Shown here: piece by piece, positions 3,909-24,437 of the stretch
Position numbering within the stretch: position 1 is the first letter of the stretch
How the letters are laid out: each line of letters starts with the position of its first letter
IMG/VR virus record: IMGVR_UViG_3300025646_000352
Location: 1 to 24,578 of that record
Length of the DNA stretch: 24,578 nucleotides
Direction: 5' to 3' (one strand)
DNA from: a virus
The notes under the pieces: generated by a model
What the model was told of the DNA's origin: nothing
Databases searched by the model: none
What the model saw: the letters and a program-made list of their open reading frames with translations, nothing else
Translations under genes and position numbers: made by a program

Positions 3909-3930
3909 GCGCCACACATCACCGTGGCGC
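3909..3930. repeat. Inverted repeat at the convergent junction
   Basis: GCGCCAC at 3909-3915 and GTGGCGC at 3924-3930 form a perfect 7-bp stem with an 8-base loop. It covers the stop codon of the sigma gene and lies 47 bases after the HNH stop, where + and - transcripts meet. Neither side has a run of T, so it is not a classical intrinsic terminator. It could still slow or process both transcripts. Low-confidence regulatory call. Confidence 0.35.
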
Positions 3931-4821
3931 TGAATAGTTGGCTCCAAGCGGTGTACCCTCCATTGGGTTGTTGATCAACATCTTCAGCCTATTGATCCCA
4001 CGTTGCTCCGCGCCTTGCAGCGTTTGCTTCGATACCTTGTACTGCTGCTCTAGTTCGCGCCACGGTATCGGGTTGCGGCTATACCGTGCAGTGATCACAT
4101 CACGTGTGCGTTCATCCAAGTAGGCATCACAATACTGACGGATGATGTCTAGTTGCCAGTCATTTTCGGGGTCATAGGTATTCGGATCAGCGATTAGATC
4201 CATCAATGCTGAATGATCCTCGCAGCCTTGCGCTGGTTTATCAAGGCTTGATACCTTATACGACTGCAGCAACGTTTGCGATATTGCAGTGGGTTCCATG
4301 TCAAGAATGCCCGCAAGATCTTGCAATGTTGCTGTGCGGCCATGTTCGCGGCTGAATTGTTCAGCGGTCTTGTGCAATTTGATCAGTAGATCATGCGCAC
4401 CAACTGGCAACCTAATAATCGGGTCATATTGCACCAATGCGCGTCCAATCGCCTGACGGATCCACCAGTAGGCATAAGTTGAAAACTTATAGCCGCGCGT
4501 GTAATCAAACAGCTCTACAGCACGCGCAAGGCCCATGTTGCCTTCTTGGATGATGTCCATCATCTCCAGTGTTTGCGTTGCACGGCGGCGATATTTACGC
4601 GCGATATGTACTACCAGCTGCAGGTTGGATTGAATGAACCGCTGCCGCGCGCGTTCACCACTACGCAACTCGCGGCGTTCTTCAGTGGTCAGTGGTCTGT
4701 CGTAATCCTTAAGTTCCCGCCAGCGTTGTACGCGGCGCCCGAGTTGTATCTCTTGCTGCGGCGTAAGCAGTGGATACCGGGCGATACTGTTGAGGTAATC
4801 GCTAACGAGATCAGTTGACAT
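3919..4821 (-). CDS. Phage-encoded sigma-70 family RNA polymerase sigma factor
   Basis: 300 residues. Region 1.2 spans about residues 4-33 (DLVSDYLNSIARYPLLTP), region 2 about 60-140, with 2.1-2.2 core binding (NLQLVVHIARKY, DIIQEGNMGLARAV) and 2.3-2.4 -10 recognition (YKFSTYAYWWIRQAIGRAL), region 3 about 141-195 and region 4 about 228-282. The WW pair that opens the -10 element is kept. YAYWWIRQAI is the form typical of cyanobacterial group-2 sigmas, which points to a cyanobacterial host. In region 2.4 a Gly replaces the usual Thr (QAIGR versus QAITR). The region 4.2 recognition helix is unusual (VSKQTLQGAEQRG instead of the RERVRQIE type). It should bind host core RNA polymerase and redirect it, perhaps to late phage promoters, which is inference. 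A candidate promoter lies at 4847-4875. Confidence 0.93.
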   Translation of the reverse strand: MSTDLVSDYLNSIARYPLLTPQQEIQLGRRVQRWRELKDYDRPLTTEERRELRSGERARQRFIQSNLQLVVHIARKYRRRATQTLEMMDIIQEGNMGLARAVELFDYTRGYKFSTYAYWWIRQAIGRALVQYDPIIRLPVGAHDLLIKLHKTAEQFSREHGRTATLQDLAGILDMEPTAISQTLLQSYKVSSLDKPAQGCEDHSALMDLIADPNTYDPENDWQLDIIRQYCDAYLDERTRDVITARYSRNPIPWRELEQQYKVSKQTLQGAEQRGINRLKMLINNPMEGTPLGANYSAPR

Positions 4822-15227: not shown

Positions 15228-15256
15228 ACAATACCACCTAGCTCAGCCGTGCGCAA
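15228..15256 (-). promoter_or_regulatory. Candidate promoter for the 15200-13450 unit
   Basis: TTGCGC (15251-15256), 17 bases, TATTGT (15228-15233) with TGG before the -10. The spacer ends CTAGGTGG, as at 10758-10786. The -35 lies in the last codons of the helicase gene. The leader contains a direct repeat CATCGGAC. Confidence 0.6.
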
Positions 15257-16613
15257 CCTTGCGGGCACGGGCGGCGTGCACATGCTTCGCCCATGCAGCT
15301 GGGTTCTTGTAGCCGCGCGTGCGGCCAAGCTGGATCAGCTGCTCCAACGACTGCGCTGAGCCTTGCTCACGCTTGCGCTCCCGAGCTGCAGCAGCAAGCT
15401 CCACCAGCTCGCCTTCCACGGTCTGCAGTTCCCTGCGCTCCACCGGTGCAAACACATGCCCGCATTCAGCGCACACGCGGGCGGTGCTGAGGCTGGTACT
15501 GAAGCATTTAGGGCAGACCTTGCAGCTCGGGGCAGATTCGCGCTGTTGCTTGCGGCGGCCGTCAAGGCTCCACTCATGCACCTGCAGCGGATGGCCAAGC
15601 CTGCCGCAGTTGCCGACGTGATCAAGGATGATCAGATCACGCTTGCCCGTTGCGATCCGCAAACCGCGACCATTGCCTTGCAACCATGCCGTTAGTGATT
15701 GCGTTGGTCTGAGCCAGATCACCACATCAATCTCAGGCACATCAACGCCAGCAATCCACAGCTGCGCGCACGCCACTAGGTCAAGCCGTCCAGCGCGTAA
15801 TCCAGCAACAGCTTCGCGGCGTTCGCGGTCATCGCTGCCGCCATGTACCGCAACAGCGCGATAGCCAGCGCGGCGCCATTGATCAGCAACAGCCTGTGCA
15901 TGGGCCACAGTGGTGCAAAACGCAACACCACGGCGGCCACGGCACAACTTACGCCAGTGGCTCAGTGCATCACCAACAACAGCCGGCTTGCTCATCATTT
16001 CACCGGCTTGCCCTTGATCAAAGTCACCGCCACGGCTGCGCAGTCCGGTTAGGTCAACGCCAGGTGGTGCATAGACACGCACTGGCGCTAGCAGTCCTTC
16101 CTCGATCAGTTCAGCCGTCGAGCATGTCGGCACCAAGCGGTCAAACACCTCACCGAGTCCACGCCCATCGAGCCGCTGAGCTGTCCCGGTGAGTCCGAGC
16201 AGCAGCGGCCGGCCAGCGGCGGCGATCACTTTTTTGTAGCTATCAGCTACAGCTAGATGGCATTCGTCGATGATGATCAAATCCGGTCGTGGCAACCGTG
16301 GCCGCCGCACTGCTGTTGCAACACCAACCACCTGCACTGGCCTTGAATAGTCCACGCGCATACCAGCGCGGATGTGGCCATGCAGGATCCCAGCATGGCG
16401 CAGGCGTGCGCTGGTATCTTCCAGGATTTCCTTCAGGTGCGCCAGAAACCACACGCTACGGCCGCGTGCAGTGCTGCTGCGGACGATTTCGGCGGCCGTC
16501 GCGGTTTTGCCGAAACCCGTTGGTGCCACAAGGATCGGGGCGCGCGCGCCGCTTTGATATGCAGCGCGCAGGTCTTCAACCGCCTTGAGTTGGCGGGGGC
16601 GGAGTTGGATCAC
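15243..16613 (-). CDS. SF2 DEAD/DEAH-like helicase
   Basis: 456 residues. Superfamily-2 motifs in order: Walker A APTGFGKT (30-37), DECH (116-119), LTGTAQR (141-147, in place of the usual LTATP), and motif VI QGNGRGLR (312-319). A four-Cys zinc ribbon (C367xxC370 and C381xxC384, with C364 nearby) follows in the linker, then a helical Arg/Gln-rich tail. It should unwind or remodel nucleic acids with ATP in replication or repair. Its start overlaps the fusion protein's stop (ATGA), so the two are made together. Confidence 0.9.
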   Translation of the reverse strand: MIQLRPRQLKAVEDLRAAYQSGARAPILVAPTGFGKTATAAEIVRSSTARGRSVWFLAHLKEILEDTSARLRHAGILHGHIRAGMRVDYSRPVQVVGVATAVRRPRLPRPDLIIIDECHLAVADSYKKVIAAAGRPLLLGLTGTAQRLDGRGLGEVFDRLVPTCSTAELIEEGLLAPVRVYAPPGVDLTGLRSRGGDFDQGQAGEMMSKPAVVGDALSHWRKLCRGRRGVAFCTTVAHAQAVADQWRRAGYRAVAVHGGSDDRERREAVAGLRAGRLDLVACAQLWIAGVDVPEIDVVIWLRPTQSLTAWLQGNGRGLRIATGKRDLIILDHVGNCGRLGHPLQVHEWSLDGRRKQQRESAPSCKVCPKCFSTSLSTARVCAECGHVFAPVERRELQTVEGELVELAAAARERKREQGSAQSLEQLIQLGRTRGYKNPAAWAKHVHAARARKVAHG

Positions 16614-18871
16614 ACCAGCTCTCCCTGCTTGGCGGATTCACACTGCTGCAGGTTCTTGGCGGCGCAGTTGAAGTAGGAAGGCTTCAGCTCAAACCCAACA
16701 AACCGCCTACCCATTTGCAGGCTGACGTATCCCTCGCTGCCGATACCAGCGAATGGGCTCAGCACAAGATCGCCCGGATTGCTCCACAGCTGCAAACCAC
16801 GACGGATCACCTCAAGCTGCAGCGGGCAGATATGGCGCTCATCGTCATTGGCGCGGGCGCTGCGGTATTGCAGCGTGTCTGATGGGTTGATGTCCATCCA
16901 CACGGGGCTGGCATACCGCTGCCAGATGTTGATTGAATCCTTGATCGGATCGCCGGTCTTGGGCGGCGGATTCTCACCGGCGAATTCCGTGAACGGTCCG
17001 GCGCACGGCTCAGGGTTGTCGCCCAGCTTCCGCACGGTCACTAGATAATCTGGGATGCCTTGGCGGCTGAGTGCTGAATCCTTGCGGATCTGCTTATGCA
17101 GCAGGCCGATCGCTTTGGTGCGCTGCATCGCAGTGACCGGATCCTTCCAGATGCACACCTCGCTATGGAATACGAAGCCGGCAGATTGGAAGATCCGCAG
17201 CATGTCACCGCGAAAGTCTTTTACTCCAATGAAGCCATCGCGTTCCTTACTGCTCGGCAGGTTCATGCAGTGGAAGCTGATCAGCCTGCCTGGCATCATC
17301 ACGCGGTGCAGCTCAGTAGCTAGGAAGCCGAAATGATCAAAGAACTCCTGCTCCGTTCGGCTGTTGCCCATATCACGGTCGCTGTTGCTGTAGGTGTAGA
17401 GCGACGCAAATGGTGGGCTGAAGACGCTGTAGTGGATTGAATCAGAATCCAACTGGCGGATGCTCTCCACGCAGTCGCCTAGGTACAGATCCCAGTTATC
17501 GCCGCTCTTGCGCTCGGTGATGTGCGGCGCCACCTGGCGCTGGATCTTCTTGAGTTGCTCCATTGTGGTCTTCTTCATGATTTCAACCATTGATTGAGCC
17601 ATTGCGATGCTGTCCGATTCCTTGCGGCGGATGTTATCAATCACGCGGCCTTCGGCCACGTCGTAGATGATGTGCGCATTCACCGGATGCTGTTGGCCGA
17701 ATCGCCAACACCTGCGGATGGCTTGATAGAACGCTTCATAGCTATGGGACAAGCCAACAAATGCGACATTGTGGCACCGCTGGAAGTTCAAGCCAAAGCC
17801 AAAGATGCTCGGCTTGCTTACCAGTACGCGAATCTTGCCGTCTTGGAAATCAATCGCAGCCTGCCGCTTGTGATCATCGCCGTCGCTGCCGGACACCTCA
17901 ACAGCGCCATTGATGGCAGCAGTGAGCGCCTTGCTTTCATCGTTCAGATCACACCACACCAGCCATTGCTCATCGCTGGCATTAGCAAGTGCAGCAGCAG
18001 CGTCAACGCGCAGCTGCAAACTAGCCTTGCGCACCTGCCGTTGATCGCTCAGCGTGCGCGCTTCCATCGCAAACAGCGCCATCTGGCCGTCGTCGCCGGC
18101 CGCAGCCTCGCGCGGTGTTTCAACCGTGCAATCATGGATGCGCAGTTCCGGTAGCACGAATTCTCCATCCTCATAACCAAGGTCCGATGGTTTGCGGATG
18201 GTCACTGCCCAGCTGCAAACCCACTCCCAGAACTTGGTCTTTGCGTGGCCCTTCAGTCGCCACTTGCTGGTATCACCGCCGTCATGCACGAAGAACATCG
18301 CCAGCATTTCGGTGCGTGTCATCACACCAATGAACTCAGCATGGTTGCCAAGTTCCATATGGTCGTTCGGTGCTGGCGTGGCTGAGCACGCAAGGCGATA
18401 CGGCGTCTGCGCAAATGACTCAATGATCTGATTGCGGATTTTGCCGGTATATGCCTTCAAGATGCTGGACTCATCCAGCACTACGCCTTGGAAACTGGCC
18501 GCATCAAAGTGGCTCAGCTTCTCGTAATTGGTGACCGTGATGCCGGGCTTGACATCAGCTTGCGTTGCAGCGAAGTTGCAGCTGATGCCGAACTTTTGCC
18601 CTTCGCGTACGGTTTGATGTGCAACCGCAAGTGGTGCTAGCACCAGCACATTGCCGCCGGTATATTCATGCACTTGATGCGCCCATTCAAGCTGCATGGC
18701 AGTCTTGCCCATGCCGCAGTCGGCCCAGATGCAGAACTTACCGACGCGGCACGCCATTGTCACGATGTCCTGCTGGAACGGGAACAATGGCGCGGTGAAT
18801 GATTGCGGATCAAATCCAGTTGCCGGCGCAGCGGTGGATTTAGCGGCGAGGAACTCTTGATATTCCTGCAT
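16610..18871 (-). CDS. SNF2-type helicase fused to a DNA methyltransferase
   Basis: 753 residues from the ATG at 18871, chosen because a GGAGG lies four bases before it. The first 450 residues are an SF2/SNF2-like ATPase: DCGMGKT (51-57), DESS (133-136), ACSATPAP (161-168) and motif VI QAIRRCWRFGQ (383-393). The last 290 are a class-beta amino-methyltransferase: motif IV SPPF (485-488) comes before motif I LSPFAGIGSEG (704-714). SPPF/SPPY usually marks N4-cytosine methylation, though some adenine enzymes share it. Fused helicase-methylases are known in phages; here they may protect the genome from host restriction. No target-recognition domain is obvious. The -10 to +5 region has the best Shine-Dalgarno on this strand. 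Confidence 0.92.
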   Translation of the reverse strand: MQEYQEFLAAKSTAAPATGFDPQSFTAPLFPFQQDIVTMACRVGKFCIWADCGMGKTAMQLEWAHQVHEYTGGNVLVLAPLAVAHQTVREGQKFGISCNFAATQADVKPGITVTNYEKLSHFDAASFQGVVLDESSILKAYTGKIRNQIIESFAQTPYRLACSATPAPNDHMELGNHAEFIGVMTRTEMLAMFFVHDGGDTSKWRLKGHAKTKFWEWVCSWAVTIRKPSDLGYEDGEFVLPELRIHDCTVETPREAAAGDDGQMALFAMEARTLSDQRQVRKASLQLRVDAAAALANASDEQWLVWCDLNDESKALTAAINGAVEVSGSDGDDHKRQAAIDFQDGKIRVLVSKPSIFGFGLNFQRCHNVAFVGLSHSYEAFYQAIRRCWRFGQQHPVNAHIIYDVAEGRVIDNIRRKESDSIAMAQSMVEIMKKTTMEQLKKIQRQVAPHITERKSGDNWDLYLGDCVESIRQLDSDSIHYSVFSPPFASLYTYSNSDRDMGNSRTEQEFFDHFGFLATELHRVMMPGRLISFHCMNLPSSKERDGFIGVKDFRGDMLRIFQSAGFVFHSEVCIWKDPVTAMQRTKAIGLLHKQIRKDSALSRQGIPDYLVTVRKLGDNPEPCAGPFTEFAGENPPPKTGDPIKDSINIWQRYASPVWMDINPSDTLQYRSARANDDERHICPLQLEVIRRGLQLWSNPGDLVLSPFAGIGSEGYVSLQMGRRFVGFELKPSYFNCAAKNLQQCESAKQGELV

Positions 18872-19029
18872 CAAACCTCCACGCAATCATCAGAATCACC
18901 TTCAGTCCAAATCACACGCGGTTCACCGTCGGGCGAATCCGGCGCCTGGCGTACCACAGCAACCGGCGCAGGTTTGCTGCAGTATTCAGGGATCGGCTGC
19001 TGGGTGGTGAGGATTAAAGCGGTGAGCAT
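18871..19029 (-). CDS. Hypothetical 52-residue acidic protein
   Basis: Found in the gap: MLTALILTTQQPIPEYCSKP, then APVAVVRQAPDSPDGEPRVI and WTEGDSDDCVEV. Pro/Asp-rich, probably unstructured apart from two short strands; two Cys. Start and stop each share one base with the neighbours (TAATG and TGATG), which supports it. It carries the Shine-Dalgarno of the helicase-methylase gene in its last codons. Function unknown. Confidence 0.6.
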   Translation of the reverse strand: MLTALILTTQQPIPEYCSKPAPVAVVRQAPDSPDGEPRVIWTEGDSDDCVEV

Positions 19030-19349
19030 TAGAGACCTTCCTCAATGATGTTGGCGAGTTCTTCAAATGTGGAGCCGTTGTCGTTAAGGGCGGCGAGGTC
19101 TAGGGGGTTGGGGCTCATTAAATCAGCCCATTTCTGCACTTGAATTGGCAGAGTTGTGTCCACGCGGTGCATAGCGCACACGTTGCCCGAGTCGTATTCA
19201 TCCCACTCCGGCCCAACCGCCTTGCCGTACAGGTCGCACAGCACACCAAGGCAGCAATACTGATCACCTTGGCGGAGATAACCCTGCCCTTGCTGGTAGT
19301 TGCCGCTGCGTAGGGCAGTGAGCCAGGCTTGCTTGATGTCCGGCTTCAC
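19029..19349 (-). CDS. Conserved phage hypothetical, IKQAWLTALRSG family
   Basis: 106 residues from the GTG at 19349, which overlaps the upstream stop (GTGA). KPDIKQAWLTALRSGNYQQG, YCCLGVLCDLYGKAV, and a C-terminal LAALNDNGSTFEELANII match a small protein common in many phages and bacteria, always annotated as hypothetical. A CCLGVLC motif with three Cys is a constant feature. The role is unknown. The frame is open upstream to 19412, but those codons overlie the upstream gene. Confidence 0.85.
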   Translation of the reverse strand: MKPDIKQAWLTALRSGNYQQGQGYLRQGDQYCCLGVLCDLYGKAVGPEWDEYDSGNVCAMHRVDTTLPIQVQKWADLMSPNPLDLAALNDNGSTFEELANIIEEGL

Positions 19350-21295: not shown

Positions 21296-23812
21296 ATGAC
21301 CGTGTTAGAAGCAGCACAAGGCAGGTGGCCTGACCTGCTGGCGGCTCTTGCTGGCCTCACGCCGGAGCAGCTGACCGACACGCATCAACCGTGCCCCTTG
21401 TGTGGTGGCACCGACCGTTACCGCTTCGACGACAAGGATGGTTCCGGTTCCTGGTTCTGCAATCAATGCGGCGGCAAAAACCAGTCAGGTGGTGGCGGCA
21501 CCGGCATGGATATGCTCATGCGCCGCAATGGCTGGAGTTTTGCCGAGGCTGCCAAGCGGATTGAGCAGCATCTCGGTATTGCCAAGCCAAAACCGGCTCC
21601 ACCGCTGCCGCGCGGCAAGCAGTTTTGGCAATACAGCAGCGACTTCTATGTTGTCCGCAAAGACAAGCCGGACGGCGACAAAGACATCCGGCCGCTTTGG
21701 TGGGATGGCGAAGCATGGCGATGGAAGGCGCCGCCTGCGCCACGTCTGTTGTACGGCAAGCGCCAGCTGACGCTCAAACCCAATGCGCCGGTGCTGGTGG
21801 TTGAAGGCGAAAAGACCGCCGACGCTGCCGCATTGCTGTTCCCGCAGGCGGTCGTGATTACATGGCCCGGTGGTTGCAAGGCCATCGGTAAAGCTGATTG
21901 GTCGCCGATAGTCGGCAGGCGTTGCGTGCTATGGCCTGATGCTGATGATGTTGGCCGCGCCGCAATGGCCAAGCTGTCCATCAAGCTGTTGCAGCTCGGT
22001 GCAGATCAGGTGCGCATCGTGCAGCCGCCAGCTGATGTGCCCAAAGGTTGGGATCTAGCGGATGCCACATGGTCACCGGCCGAAGCTGCTGCCTACCTGC
22101 GCGCCAATCGCTCCGCACCAATCGAGCTGCCGGCGCTTGCTGTGCCTGACGCCGAACCCGACCGCGATCCAATACCGGAGCCGGCGCCGCTACCAAAGCA
22201 AGGTGAAGCCTTTACGTGCCTTGGCTTTGACAATGACGCCTACTTCTATCAGCCCAACAGCACCGGCCAGGTGATCCGGCTCGGTCGTGCCAGTCACACC
22301 GGCACCAACCTATGCGCCATCGCGCCGATCGAATACTGGCAGTCGTTCTACCCATCCAGGACTGGCACCGACTGGACATCAGCGGCATCCAGCTTGTTTG
22401 AGCTGCAGTCCCGCATCGGCATCTACGACCCGCATCGCATTCGCGGCCGTGGTGCATGGCGCGATCAAGGTCAGTCGGTGCTGCACCTCGGTGATCGCCT
22501 CATCATCGGTGACCGCTCCGTACCATCATCTACCGGCATCGATGGCAGCGCTTACATCTATCAGCGTCTCGCGCGCTTGACCGGGCCAGGTACAGCAAAG
22601 CCGCTCAGCCGTGATGACGCCTACATCCTTTGCGGTATCGCCGAGCGCTTCCGCTGGGAAGTACCCGTATCAGGACTGTTGCTTGCTGGCTGGGTTGTGC
22701 TCGCGCCGGTCTGCGGTGCACTCGACTGGCGGCCGCATATCTGGATCACAGCCGGCGCCGGTTCCGGCAAATCCGCCATCCTTGAGCGCTACATCGCGCC
22801 ATTGCTCGGAGACCTATCACTACATGTCTCCGGCAACACCTCAGAAGCTGGTCTCCGCCAAACGTTACGAGCCGATGCGTTGCCGGTGGTATTTGATGAG
22901 GCCGAATCCAACGAAAAGACCGATCAGCAGCGGATGCAGAACGTGCTATCCCTAGCGCGTGTTGCCAGTAGTGAATCACGCGCGCAAACAATCAAAGGCA
23001 GCGCCGATGGTGACGCACAACGCTATGCCATCCGAAGCATGTTTTGCATGTCGTCGATTGCAACAGCACTCAAGCAAGGTGCCGACAAATCACGCTTTGC
23101 GCAGCTCACATTACGCAATCCAGGCGATACACCAAAGGCAGAACGCATCGCCCATTGGGAACAGTTAGACCGCGATCTTGATCGTTACGTCACTGATCGC
23201 GTCGGGCAGCGATTACAGGCGCGGACTGTAGCGATGATTCCAACAATACGCGAGTCGATTAAAGTCTTCACCCGTACAGCCGCTGAAATCTTTGATAGCC
23301 AACGCCTCGGCGATCAGTACGGTGCATTACTCGGTGGCGCGTGGTCTTTGTACTCCGACGATATAGCAACCCGTGATGAAGCGTATCAGCTGATTGAGCA
23401 GAACAGCTGGGAATCGTATTCGCAATCCACTGAGTTGCCGGATGAAAAGCGGTGTATTCAGATGATCCTTCAGCATCAAGTGCGCGTTGAATCTGATGAT
23501 CGTATCTGCACGCGAACGCTTGGTGAGCTTGTGGAAATCGCCGCATCGCGTCGCGTTGACCGCGAAGTGACTGCCACGCAGGCGCAGGACAGCATGTCTC
23601 GGGTTGGTCTCAAGGTGGACAACCAGCGGCAGGCGTTGCTGGTGAGCAACACCGCAGGTGCCATCGCCGCCATCCTCCGCGATACCGCATGGGCGCAATG
23701 CTGGGCAACAGTGCTCGCGCGGCTACCAGATGCGCAGCGCGTCGGCTCCACGCGATTCAGTGGCGCTGGCACCGTCAGCCGCGCCATAGCGTTACAGATC
23801 GATGGTTTGTAA
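21296..23812 (+). CDS. Primase-helicase: zinc ribbon, TOPRIM and P-loop ATPase
   Basis: 838 residues. Zinc ribbon C33xxC36 ... C55xxC58 (CPLCGGTDRYRF, then WFCNQCGGK) as in P4-alpha-type primases; a TOPRIM core with E170-G-E-K173 (LVVEGEKTADAA) and D215/D217 (VLWPDADDVG); then a DUF927/P4-like ATPase with Walker A TAGAGSGKS (485-493) and Walker B PVVFDEAE (530-537). It should lay RNA primers and unwind DNA at the phage origin. The C-terminal 200 residues are a helical or winged unit that, in P4-alpha, binds the origin; here a set of repeats lies right after the gene. It starts one base after the RHH stop. Confidence 0.92.
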   Translation: MTVLEAAQGRWPDLLAALAGLTPEQLTDTHQPCPLCGGTDRYRFDDKDGSGSWFCNQCGGKNQSGGGGTGMDMLMRRNGWSFAEAAKRIEQHLGIAKPKPAPPLPRGKQFWQYSSDFYVVRKDKPDGDKDIRPLWWDGEAWRWKAPPAPRLLYGKRQLTLKPNAPVLVVEGEKTADAAALLFPQAVVITWPGGCKAIGKADWSPIVGRRCVLWPDADDVGRAAMAKLSIKLLQLGADQVRIVQPPADVPKGWDLADATWSPAEAAAYLRANRSAPIELPALAVPDAEPDRDPIPEPAPLPKQGEAFTCLGFDNDAYFYQPNSTGQVIRLGRASHTGTNLCAIAPIEYWQSFYPSRTGTDWTSAASSLFELQSRIGIYDPHRIRGRGAWRDQGQSVLHLGDRLIIGDRSVPSSTGIDGSAYIYQRLARLTGPGTAKPLSRDDAYILCGIAERFRWEVPVSGLLLAGWVVLAPVCGALDWRPHIWITAGAGSGKSAILERYIAPLLGDLSLHVSGNTSEAGLRQTLRADALPVVFDEAESNEKTDQQRMQNVLSLARVASSESRAQTIKGSADGDAQRYAIRSMFCMSSIATALKQGADKSRFAQLTLRNPGDTPKAERIAHWEQLDRDLDRYVTDRVGQRLQARTVAMIPTIRESIKVFTRTAAEIFDSQRLGDQYGALLGGAWSLYSDDIATRDEAYQLIEQNSWESYSQSTELPDEKRCIQMILQHQVRVESDDRICTRTLGELVEIAASRRVDREVTATQAQDSMSRVGLKVDNQRQALLVSNTAGAIAAILRDTAWAQCWATVLARLPDAQRVGSTRFSGAGTVSRAIALQIDGL

Positions 23813-24115
23813 CGCTTCGCCAGAGGTGCGTTACAGGGCAAACCCACTGCGCCGCAGCACTTGTAACGGTTCAGAGGCTTGTAACGCTTTTCAGATATAT
23901 ATCCCCCTAGAGAGAAGGAGCACTACCTACCCACCTACTAAGGTTGCAAGGGTAGGCCCCAATCCTTTATATATATTTCTCTGTTACATGATACAAACAA
24001 CAAGACAGGCCGTGAGACTGCCTGCGCTGGTGTGGATCTCGGCGTAACGCTTTTTGTAACGCTCCGGCCCCAAACCGTTACAACCCAGTCCACCACTAGA
24101 AACTGCACCGTTACA
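23789..24115. repeat. Iteron-like repeat cluster, candidate replication origin
   Basis: Copies of TGTAACGC or TGTAACGG, both orientations. Forward: 23808-23815, 23862-23869, 23880-23887, 24043-24050 (first base C), 24055-24062. Reverse: 23789-23796, 23828-23835, 24075-24082, 24108-24115. A shorter TGTTACA is at 23982-23988. Several are 18-20 bases apart, about two helical turns. Two AT-rich stretches (GATATATATCC near 23893 and TTTATATATATTT near 23966) lie in the 155-base gap between the two groups, along with an inverted repeat CCTACCC/GGGTAGG (23926-23956, 17-base spacer). This is the make-up of an iteron origin with a DNA-unwinding element next to its initiator gene. Confidence 0.7.
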
Positions 24116-24128
24116 CCGCGATTCTCAA

Positions 24129-24437
24129 ATGAGACTCACCAATCACGCACGAGACCGATTCATCCGCGAGCTGGAGGACTGGCTGACGCCGGACCTCCTG
24201 TACCATTGCTTCACCGGTGAAGGCGATGCCAATCGCCTCGCTCGTGTCGCTTCACTCGATCACGTACTGCAATCGGCACTACTTGAGAAGGTGGAACGGC
24301 AATGGCCTGAAAGGCTGCAATCCATCGCCGCCGAGCGTCGCGCCGAATGGCTGCGCTCCAAGGCCATCACATCTGCGTACGTGACCCAATGCCTGAAATC
24401 AAGTTCAACCTCACCGATGCCCAACTGGCGCACCTGA
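24129..24437 (+). CDS. Hypothetical protein after the origin region
   Basis: 102 residues, starting MRLTNHARDRFIRELEDWLT, with a helical make-up (VASLDHVLQSALLEKVERQW, then PERLQSIAAERRAEWLRSKA). The last 15 codons overlap the next gene in another frame and are Ser/Pro-rich. No family recognised. A DNA-binding or replication accessory role would fit its place. Confidence 0.55.
   Translation: MRLTNHARDRFIRELEDWLTPDLLYHCFTGEGDANRLARVASLDHVLQSALLEKVERQWPERLQSIAAERRAEWLRSKAITSAYVTQCLKSSSTSPMPNWRT

Follow-up and report, generated by a model that had tools for sequence, protein, structure and literature searches.

We describe a two-sided cluster of 8-bp iterons directly 3' of a primase-helicase gene in a viral DNA, and on the evidence of the sequences we consider it very probable that the phage has its replication origin here, and that this origin is recognised by the adjoining primase-helicase, a self-loading protein, with its C-terminal wing. 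It also seems likely, albeit with less assurance, that wing and iterons are related by a natural code of nearly one residue, i.e. that position 820 of the protein (perhaps with 824) is matched to iterons laid out as 6+6 for two hexamers, and that origins have been re-addressed many times by this code in phages and integrated elements, in picocyanobacteria and beyond. A swap of this residue would then re-address the origin.

The iteron cluster

The window denotes here the whole stretch of DNA that was analysed, i.e. the entire IMG/VR record of 24578 bases, and TGTAACGS was counted over this full length. Eight exact copies, four on each strand, fall between positions 23789 and 24115, i.e. within 327 bp in which about 0.01 are expected (Poisson P approximately 1.5e-20 for at least eight copies per 327 bp). 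The window as a whole has ten copies against an expectation of 0.94, a number reached in none of 100 shuffles, and only two of them lie in the other 24 kb. The enrichment that a preliminary description of this DNA proposed to check is thus present, 8 of the 10 copies being confined to the cluster. The generic pattern of the iteron family, YSTNMCGS, is found at the expected level (60 occurrences versus 58.7), which shows that the clustering is a property of the specific word TGTAACGS.

The iterons flank an AT-rich core on either side. On the primase side there are five exact copies: TGTAACGC at 23789-23796 (minus strand), at 23808-23815 (plus) and at 23828-23835 (minus), TGTAACGG at 23862-23869 (plus) and TGTAACGC at 23880-23887 (plus). 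The far side has TGTAACGC at 24055-24062 (plus) and TGTAACGG at 24075-24082 and 24108-24115 (both minus), as well as a near copy with one mismatch, CGTAACGC, at 24043-24050 (plus). A degenerate iteron, TGTAACAG, is seen at 23981-23988 (minus), where relatives have their first right-hand group. The preliminary description had counted nine copies, five forward and four reverse. The ninth, which is also the fifth forward one, is the near copy at 24043, so that the exact count is eight, with the four reverse copies as given and four forward. It had placed the first copies inside the last codons of the primase gene; this is right for 23789-23796, whereas 23808-23815 spans the TAA stop codon (23810-23812). 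In relatives, too, iterons sit at this place in the final codons. Four neighbouring pairs are spaced by 19, 20, 18 and 20 bases, in agreement with the 18-20 bases noted earlier. The layout is looser than in relatives with 6+6 iterons, where the spacing is about 9 bp, and we infer that alternate sites have apparently decayed in the window.

The AT-rich core and neighbouring genes

The core, which is the proposed melting region, extends over 23890-24000 and has a GC content of 36-50% in 50-bp windows, as compared with 58% for the contig. It contains two inverted repeats, ATATATAT at 23895/23969 and CCTACCC at 23926/23950, so that the AT-rich middle with an inverted repeat described previously is recovered. 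In relatives the median core length is 105 bp, and the AT content is above that of the respective locus in 61 of 63 cases.

Small dyads, referred to as H1 and H2, lie between the iteron groups of relatives, with mean scores of 5.4 and 4.8, respectively, versus 3.2 in shuffled sequences. They are recognisable in many relatives yet irregular (e.g. AAACCCTTGCGCTGCAAGGGTTT in L061). Both are weak in the window: CTGCGCCGCAG at 23847-23857 is at the position of the left element (H1), and the imperfect dyad GAGACTGCC...GGATCTC at 24014-24040 is at that of the right element (H2). Degenerate palindromes resembling AAACCCTTGCGCTGCAAGGGTTT are found on both sides of the core, in L061 at 29 to 51 past the primase stop and similarly placed in L031, L143 and L149. 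The dyads are possibly priming hairpins in single-stranded DNA or the site of a second protein. GC skew, which the preliminary description suggested as a check, shows no clear switch at the cluster in the window, nor in the named phage S-H1. Searches of the region gave no Rfam match and no tRNA, and the single terminator-like site that was found is within chance expectation.

Past the cluster, a gene for a ribbon-helix-helix-like protein begins at 24389 and runs off the contig (24389-24577, plus strand); its matches, NikA-like and VapB-like, are weak. About one locus in three has such a gene right past the origin (e.g. the window, L142, L143, L018 and L020), in L020 seemingly just as a remnant. 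In S-H1 (L009) the gene at 18187-19236, shortly past the origin, is annotated as the sliding clamp, i.e. the beta subunit of DNA polymerase III. Elsewhere in the window, the minus strand encodes a 758-aa protein with a DEAD/SNF2-type helicase and an N6/N4 DNA methylase domain (16610-18886), adjoined by a second helicase gene (15243-16613), and a sigma-70-family sigma factor with regions 1.2, 2 and 3 (3919-4821).

The primase-helicase and its C-terminal domain

The gene directly upstream of the cluster (21296-23812, plus strand) encodes a primase-helicase of 838 amino acids, the proposed origin-binding initiator, as judged by domain, PHROG and fold matches. The domain matches are Zn_Ribbon_Prim (PF08273, E=2.8e-14) and, for the Toprim-like part, DUF6371 (E=4.9e-7), and the PHROG matches are 35358/510 ('DNA primase'). 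The helicase part has a Walker A motif, GAGSGKS (residues 487-493, positions 22754-22774), of which G491 and K492 are invariant in 42 homologues. A PDB sequence search gave no true relative. For the full-length AlphaFold2 model (pLDDT 88) the best fold matches are ASFV PrimPol, MPXV E5, SaPI PriRep1 (with dsDNA) and NrS-1, with E values of about 1e-6 to 1e-5 and low TM scores across the whole chain. On the basis of the model and the Walker A motif, the motor appears to have the fold of a D5/SF3-type initiator helicase.

The C-terminal domain (residues 687-838, 23354-23809) is predicted to be winged-helix-like and origin-binding. Modelled alone by AlphaFold2 with 82 sequences, it reaches a pLDDT of 87 and a pTM of 0.76 and ends in a beta hairpin. 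Foldseek with this domain alone gave nothing significant. On a second look at the list, SaPIbov1 Rep ranks first with its C-terminal domain (8tch, residues 452-552), at a weak Z of 4.6, and the next entries include several DNA-binding domains of the winged-helix kind, also with weak scores. The last beta hairpin, i.e. the putative wing that would carry the specificity residues, corresponds to codons 814-834 (23735-23797); its strands are 814-821 and 826-834 in the full model, and 128-134 and 141-148 in the numbering of the domain model. Positions 23753-23755 encode Arg820, which by mutual information and by purity is the residue most closely associated with the first two iteron positions.

The C-terminal residues differ by lineage, ALQI being found with TGTAAC, AVRV with TCTCAC, and VT before R820 with TGTTAC. 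As iterons lie within the last codons, the C-terminal residues follow the word, i.e. the protein is here constrained by the DNA site. An association between residue 832 and the word was set aside for this reason, since the embedded iteron covers its codon.

Relatives and their iteron words

The comparison comprised 80 viral loci, loci from later scans, S-H1 and bacterial genomes, the latter mostly of Cyanobium, Synechococcus and Vulcanococcus; Cyanobium and Synechococcus loci were surveyed to 3 kb. Down to about 45% identity, nearly every relative has a two-sided cluster directly 3' of the primase-helicase gene, each with its own word. At least three exact copies are present in 63 of 68 non-redundant loci, and in these 68 loci the 7-mer of the locus itself has a density of 15.3 per kb at the cluster versus 0.057 per kb elsewhere, i.e. 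a 267-fold difference. The words, of which each lineage has its own, are of a TG type (TGTAACG, TGTTACG, TGTCCCG, TGTGACG, TGTCACG), a TC type (TCTTACG, TCTCACG, TCTGACG, TCTAACG) and a CC type (CCTAACG, CCTCACG, CCTTACG). Exactly 6+6 iterons, in the orientation <<<>>> core <<><<<, are seen in 21 loci of the classes CCTAAC, CCTCAC and TCTTAC; the fixed number fits two hexamers.

Cultured, distant phages are among the relatives. Phage phi1422 has 11 copies of TGTTACC, in KLER1-1 a TATATA core is flanked by TGTAAGC on either side, and Acinetobacter phage Acjo_20 (L095, 1454-2104) has two-sided TGTAAC-type clusters with an AT-rich core, which lie upstream of the primase gene instead of 3' of it. 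All three have clusters of the TG type and Arg in the 820 column. A primase gene without the repeats in related phages had been named as an observation against the origin reading. At about 45% identity and above nearly all relatives do have the repeats, whereas several named phages with homologues under about 40% identity have no 3' cluster (ZRG1, Jeremy, PY223, MQ-4, PHB04, ST4, Touem01, Mwe-JY13 and Mecenats66). In the bacterial genomes, a few copies have decayed clusters only, namely L267 and L268, with degenerate remnants, and L259, which is cut off.

Two further cases were noted. In L068, TCTCACG iterons on the primase side, which fit its Tyr, and TGTAACG iterons on the far side are joined in the conserved core. 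This two-word region extends from the primase stop around 7691 to +260 and is the product either of recombination between origins or of a chimeric assembly. Synechococcus sp. HJ21-Hayes has four homologous primase loci (L252, L253, L269 and L288), three with TGTAAC-type iterons and L269 with the TGGAACG type; they are possibly coexisting elements. The phage of the window is probably cyanobacterial; hosts were deduced from S-H1 (Synechococcus WH7803) and the loci in bacterial genomes.

Covariation of residue 820 with the iteron word

Of all columns, none shares as much normalised mutual information with iteron positions 1-2 as residue 820 (0.69, the next being 0.47). This residue predicts the word with a purity of 98.5%, as compared with 89.7% for the next column within the domain and a base rate of 70.6%. 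Arg with G at position 2 accounts for 67 of the 114 distinct loci, Trp with CC for 24 and Tyr with TC for 17; the rest are His with TC (3) or CC (1), Ser with TC (1) and one misfit, L068. In other words, the rule fits 113 of 114 distinct loci, and 146 of 149 once the bacterial genomes are added, the other two misfits being the distant L298 and L312. The rule was first seen in 42 non-redundant sequences. All 36 later homologues from IMG/VR obey it, L150 among them on two copies only, and so do nearly all bacterial genome loci with a countable cluster, at 25-57% identity. In the pair L142 and L143 the helicase parts are 97% identical, residue 820 is Tyr versus Arg, and the iterons are TCTGACG versus TGTTACG.

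Arg820 is encoded by five different codons (CGT, CGC, CGG, CGA and AGA), and in 63 of 68 loci the word of the locus is not found within 12 bases of the 820 codon. The link is therefore at the protein level and no artefact of overlap. Residue 824 is mostly Ala or Cys with TGTAACG and mostly Met or Leu with TGTTACG, and from these sequences it may be, with nearby wing residues, of influence on iteron base 4. As a second code for base 4 it was rejected, as other columns score higher and lineages confound the association.

The independence of the switches was assessed on a tree of the helicase part, with the C-terminal domain left out, on which there are 11 residue changes and 12 iteron changes. 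Five independent, well-supported pairs were found; in most pairings all of them agree (4.8 on average), and none is opposite (sign test, p 0.06); a tree of the C-terminal domain has one well-supported pair only. A Fisher p of 5e-36 takes no account of relatedness and should not serve as a test. We note that the end of the gene adjoins the origin, so that recombination can carry both along at once. Although the effect is very regular, its formal independence is limited.

Proposed origin function and alternative explanations

The covariation of amino acid and iteron indicates that it is the neighbouring protein which reads the repeats, and together with the conservation of the cluster it supports the earlier suggestion of an origin recognised by that protein. 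In the mechanism we propose, the primase-helicase from the gene directly upstream would be a self-loading initiator, the winged C-terminal domain of which would bind the 8-bp iterons, with residue 820 reading bases 1-2 (Arg TG, Tyr TC, Trp CC, His mostly TC). One ring would form to the left of the AT-rich core and one to the right, each on the iterons of that side; the core would then melt, and unwinding as well as priming would be the work of the same protein. Helicases of this kind as a rule form double hexamers, head to head (PMC9894130). This sequence of binding, assembly of two rings, melting and priming is the most likely course of events by analogy with SaPI Rep and SCCmec Cch2, taken together with the cluster and its covariation.

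Clustered repeats can also be operators, and the iterons might serve transcription control, bound by the downstream ribbon-helix-helix protein or by an autorepressing primase. A ribbon-helix-helix gene does begin soon past the last iterons in several loci, but a homologue occurs in only about 22 of 68 loci whereas iterons occur in all, and in L142 and L143 the N-terminus of this protein is identical, including the DNA-reading strand, while the iterons differ. The ribbon-helix-helix neighbour was rejected as the iteron reader on these two grounds. Moreover, a scan of the region found no sigma-70-like promoter, with the proviso that phage and cyanobacterial promoters may differ, and we regard operators of either kind as highly improbable. 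Partition or packaging sites in place of an origin are, if anything, more improbable still. Two-sided repeat clusters do occur in centromere-like sites, but the residue with which the word varies belongs to the primase-helicase and not to any protein for partition or packaging, and the window shows no partition gene adjoining the cluster.

A third explanation accepts the origin and ascribes its covariation with residue 820 to joint recombination only, the true contact residues being elsewhere in the domain. The adjacency of gene end and origin is in favour of this, and L142 and L143 do resemble a joint swap of both. Such hitchhiking would predict a like association for all columns of the domain, however, whereas 820 stands out in purity against the next best column. 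The rule is, furthermore, mostly kept in homologues at 25-40% identity in other phyla, and the pairing of Arg with G is a textbook protein-DNA contact. We therefore consider this explanation unlikely, though clearly less so than the other two.

An origin read by the wing of its primase-helicase has several implications. The two-sided iteron origin would be conserved within a family of phage primases that extends to cyanobacterial, alpha- and gammaproteobacterial elements. A readable origin code in a primase-helicase would make the specificity between initiator and origin, and its switching without killing the replicon, accessible by single substitutions. The code would predict the origin word from the protein sequence, and provide a set of replicons, possibly orthogonal to each other, that would be useful in cyanobacteria.

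Comparison with known systems

Besides P4 crr, the closest described layout is the pri-rep-ori segment of PICIs and SaPIs. PICI origins have two sets of iterons around an AT-rich region 3' of pri-rep, an arrangement said to be unique among known bacterial replicons, and for EcCICFT073 the segment was tested in the form of a plasmid replicon (PMC6092414). SaPI Rep reads its origin via the C-terminal domain, apparently as two hexamers; both in this protein and in SCCmec Cch2, the C-terminal domain binds repeats that lie immediately 3' of the respective gene (PMC7581432). As in SaPI1, SaPIbov1 and EcCICFT073, the initiator gene of the window is followed directly on its 3' side by iterons in two sets with an AT-rich region between them. 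PICIs are satellites, with an integrase and a regulator but no virion genes of their own; the window is a fragment, and the annotation of S-H1, the nearest named relative, includes genes for terminase, coat and tail. SaPI primases belong to the AEP type (PMC7581432), that of the window combines a Zn ribbon with a Toprim-like part, and the iteron words differ as well.

The preliminary description had called the protein P4-alpha-like. This is true of the N-terminal Zn-ribbon/Toprim half, which is homologous to that of P4 alpha (hhalign probability 99.4%, residues 2-192), but not of the helicase and the C-terminal domain: D5_N, DUF5906 and Pox_D5 are all matched in P4 alpha and none of them in the window protein. 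P4 likewise has 8-bp iterons in both orientations, with crr directly 3' of the alpha gene. However, its iteron is TGTTCACC, in crr and ori1 (NC_001609), as opposed to TGTAACGS, and it has two separate sites, crr and ori.

In SCCmec the C-terminal domain of Cch2, taken by itself, binds to direct repeats that follow immediately on the gene (PMC7581432), and Cch is among the fold matches of our C-terminal domain (Z 2.8). Unlike the window, this staphylococcal element has only three 5-nt repeats (AAGTG) and a separate primase. The iteron-related domain of geminivirus Rep provides a parallel for the code, in that a few residues of Rep change along with the iteron base and specificity is switched by recombination (PMC2974675); this Rep is a rolling-circle protein of ssDNA viruses, unrelated to that of the window. 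A literature search, which covered few subscription papers, found no account of the origin or iterons of this phage family or of a wing code for primase-helicases. The layout as such is already known from P4 crr, SaPI/PICI and SCCmec; new are the phage family, its iterons and the apparent one-residue code.
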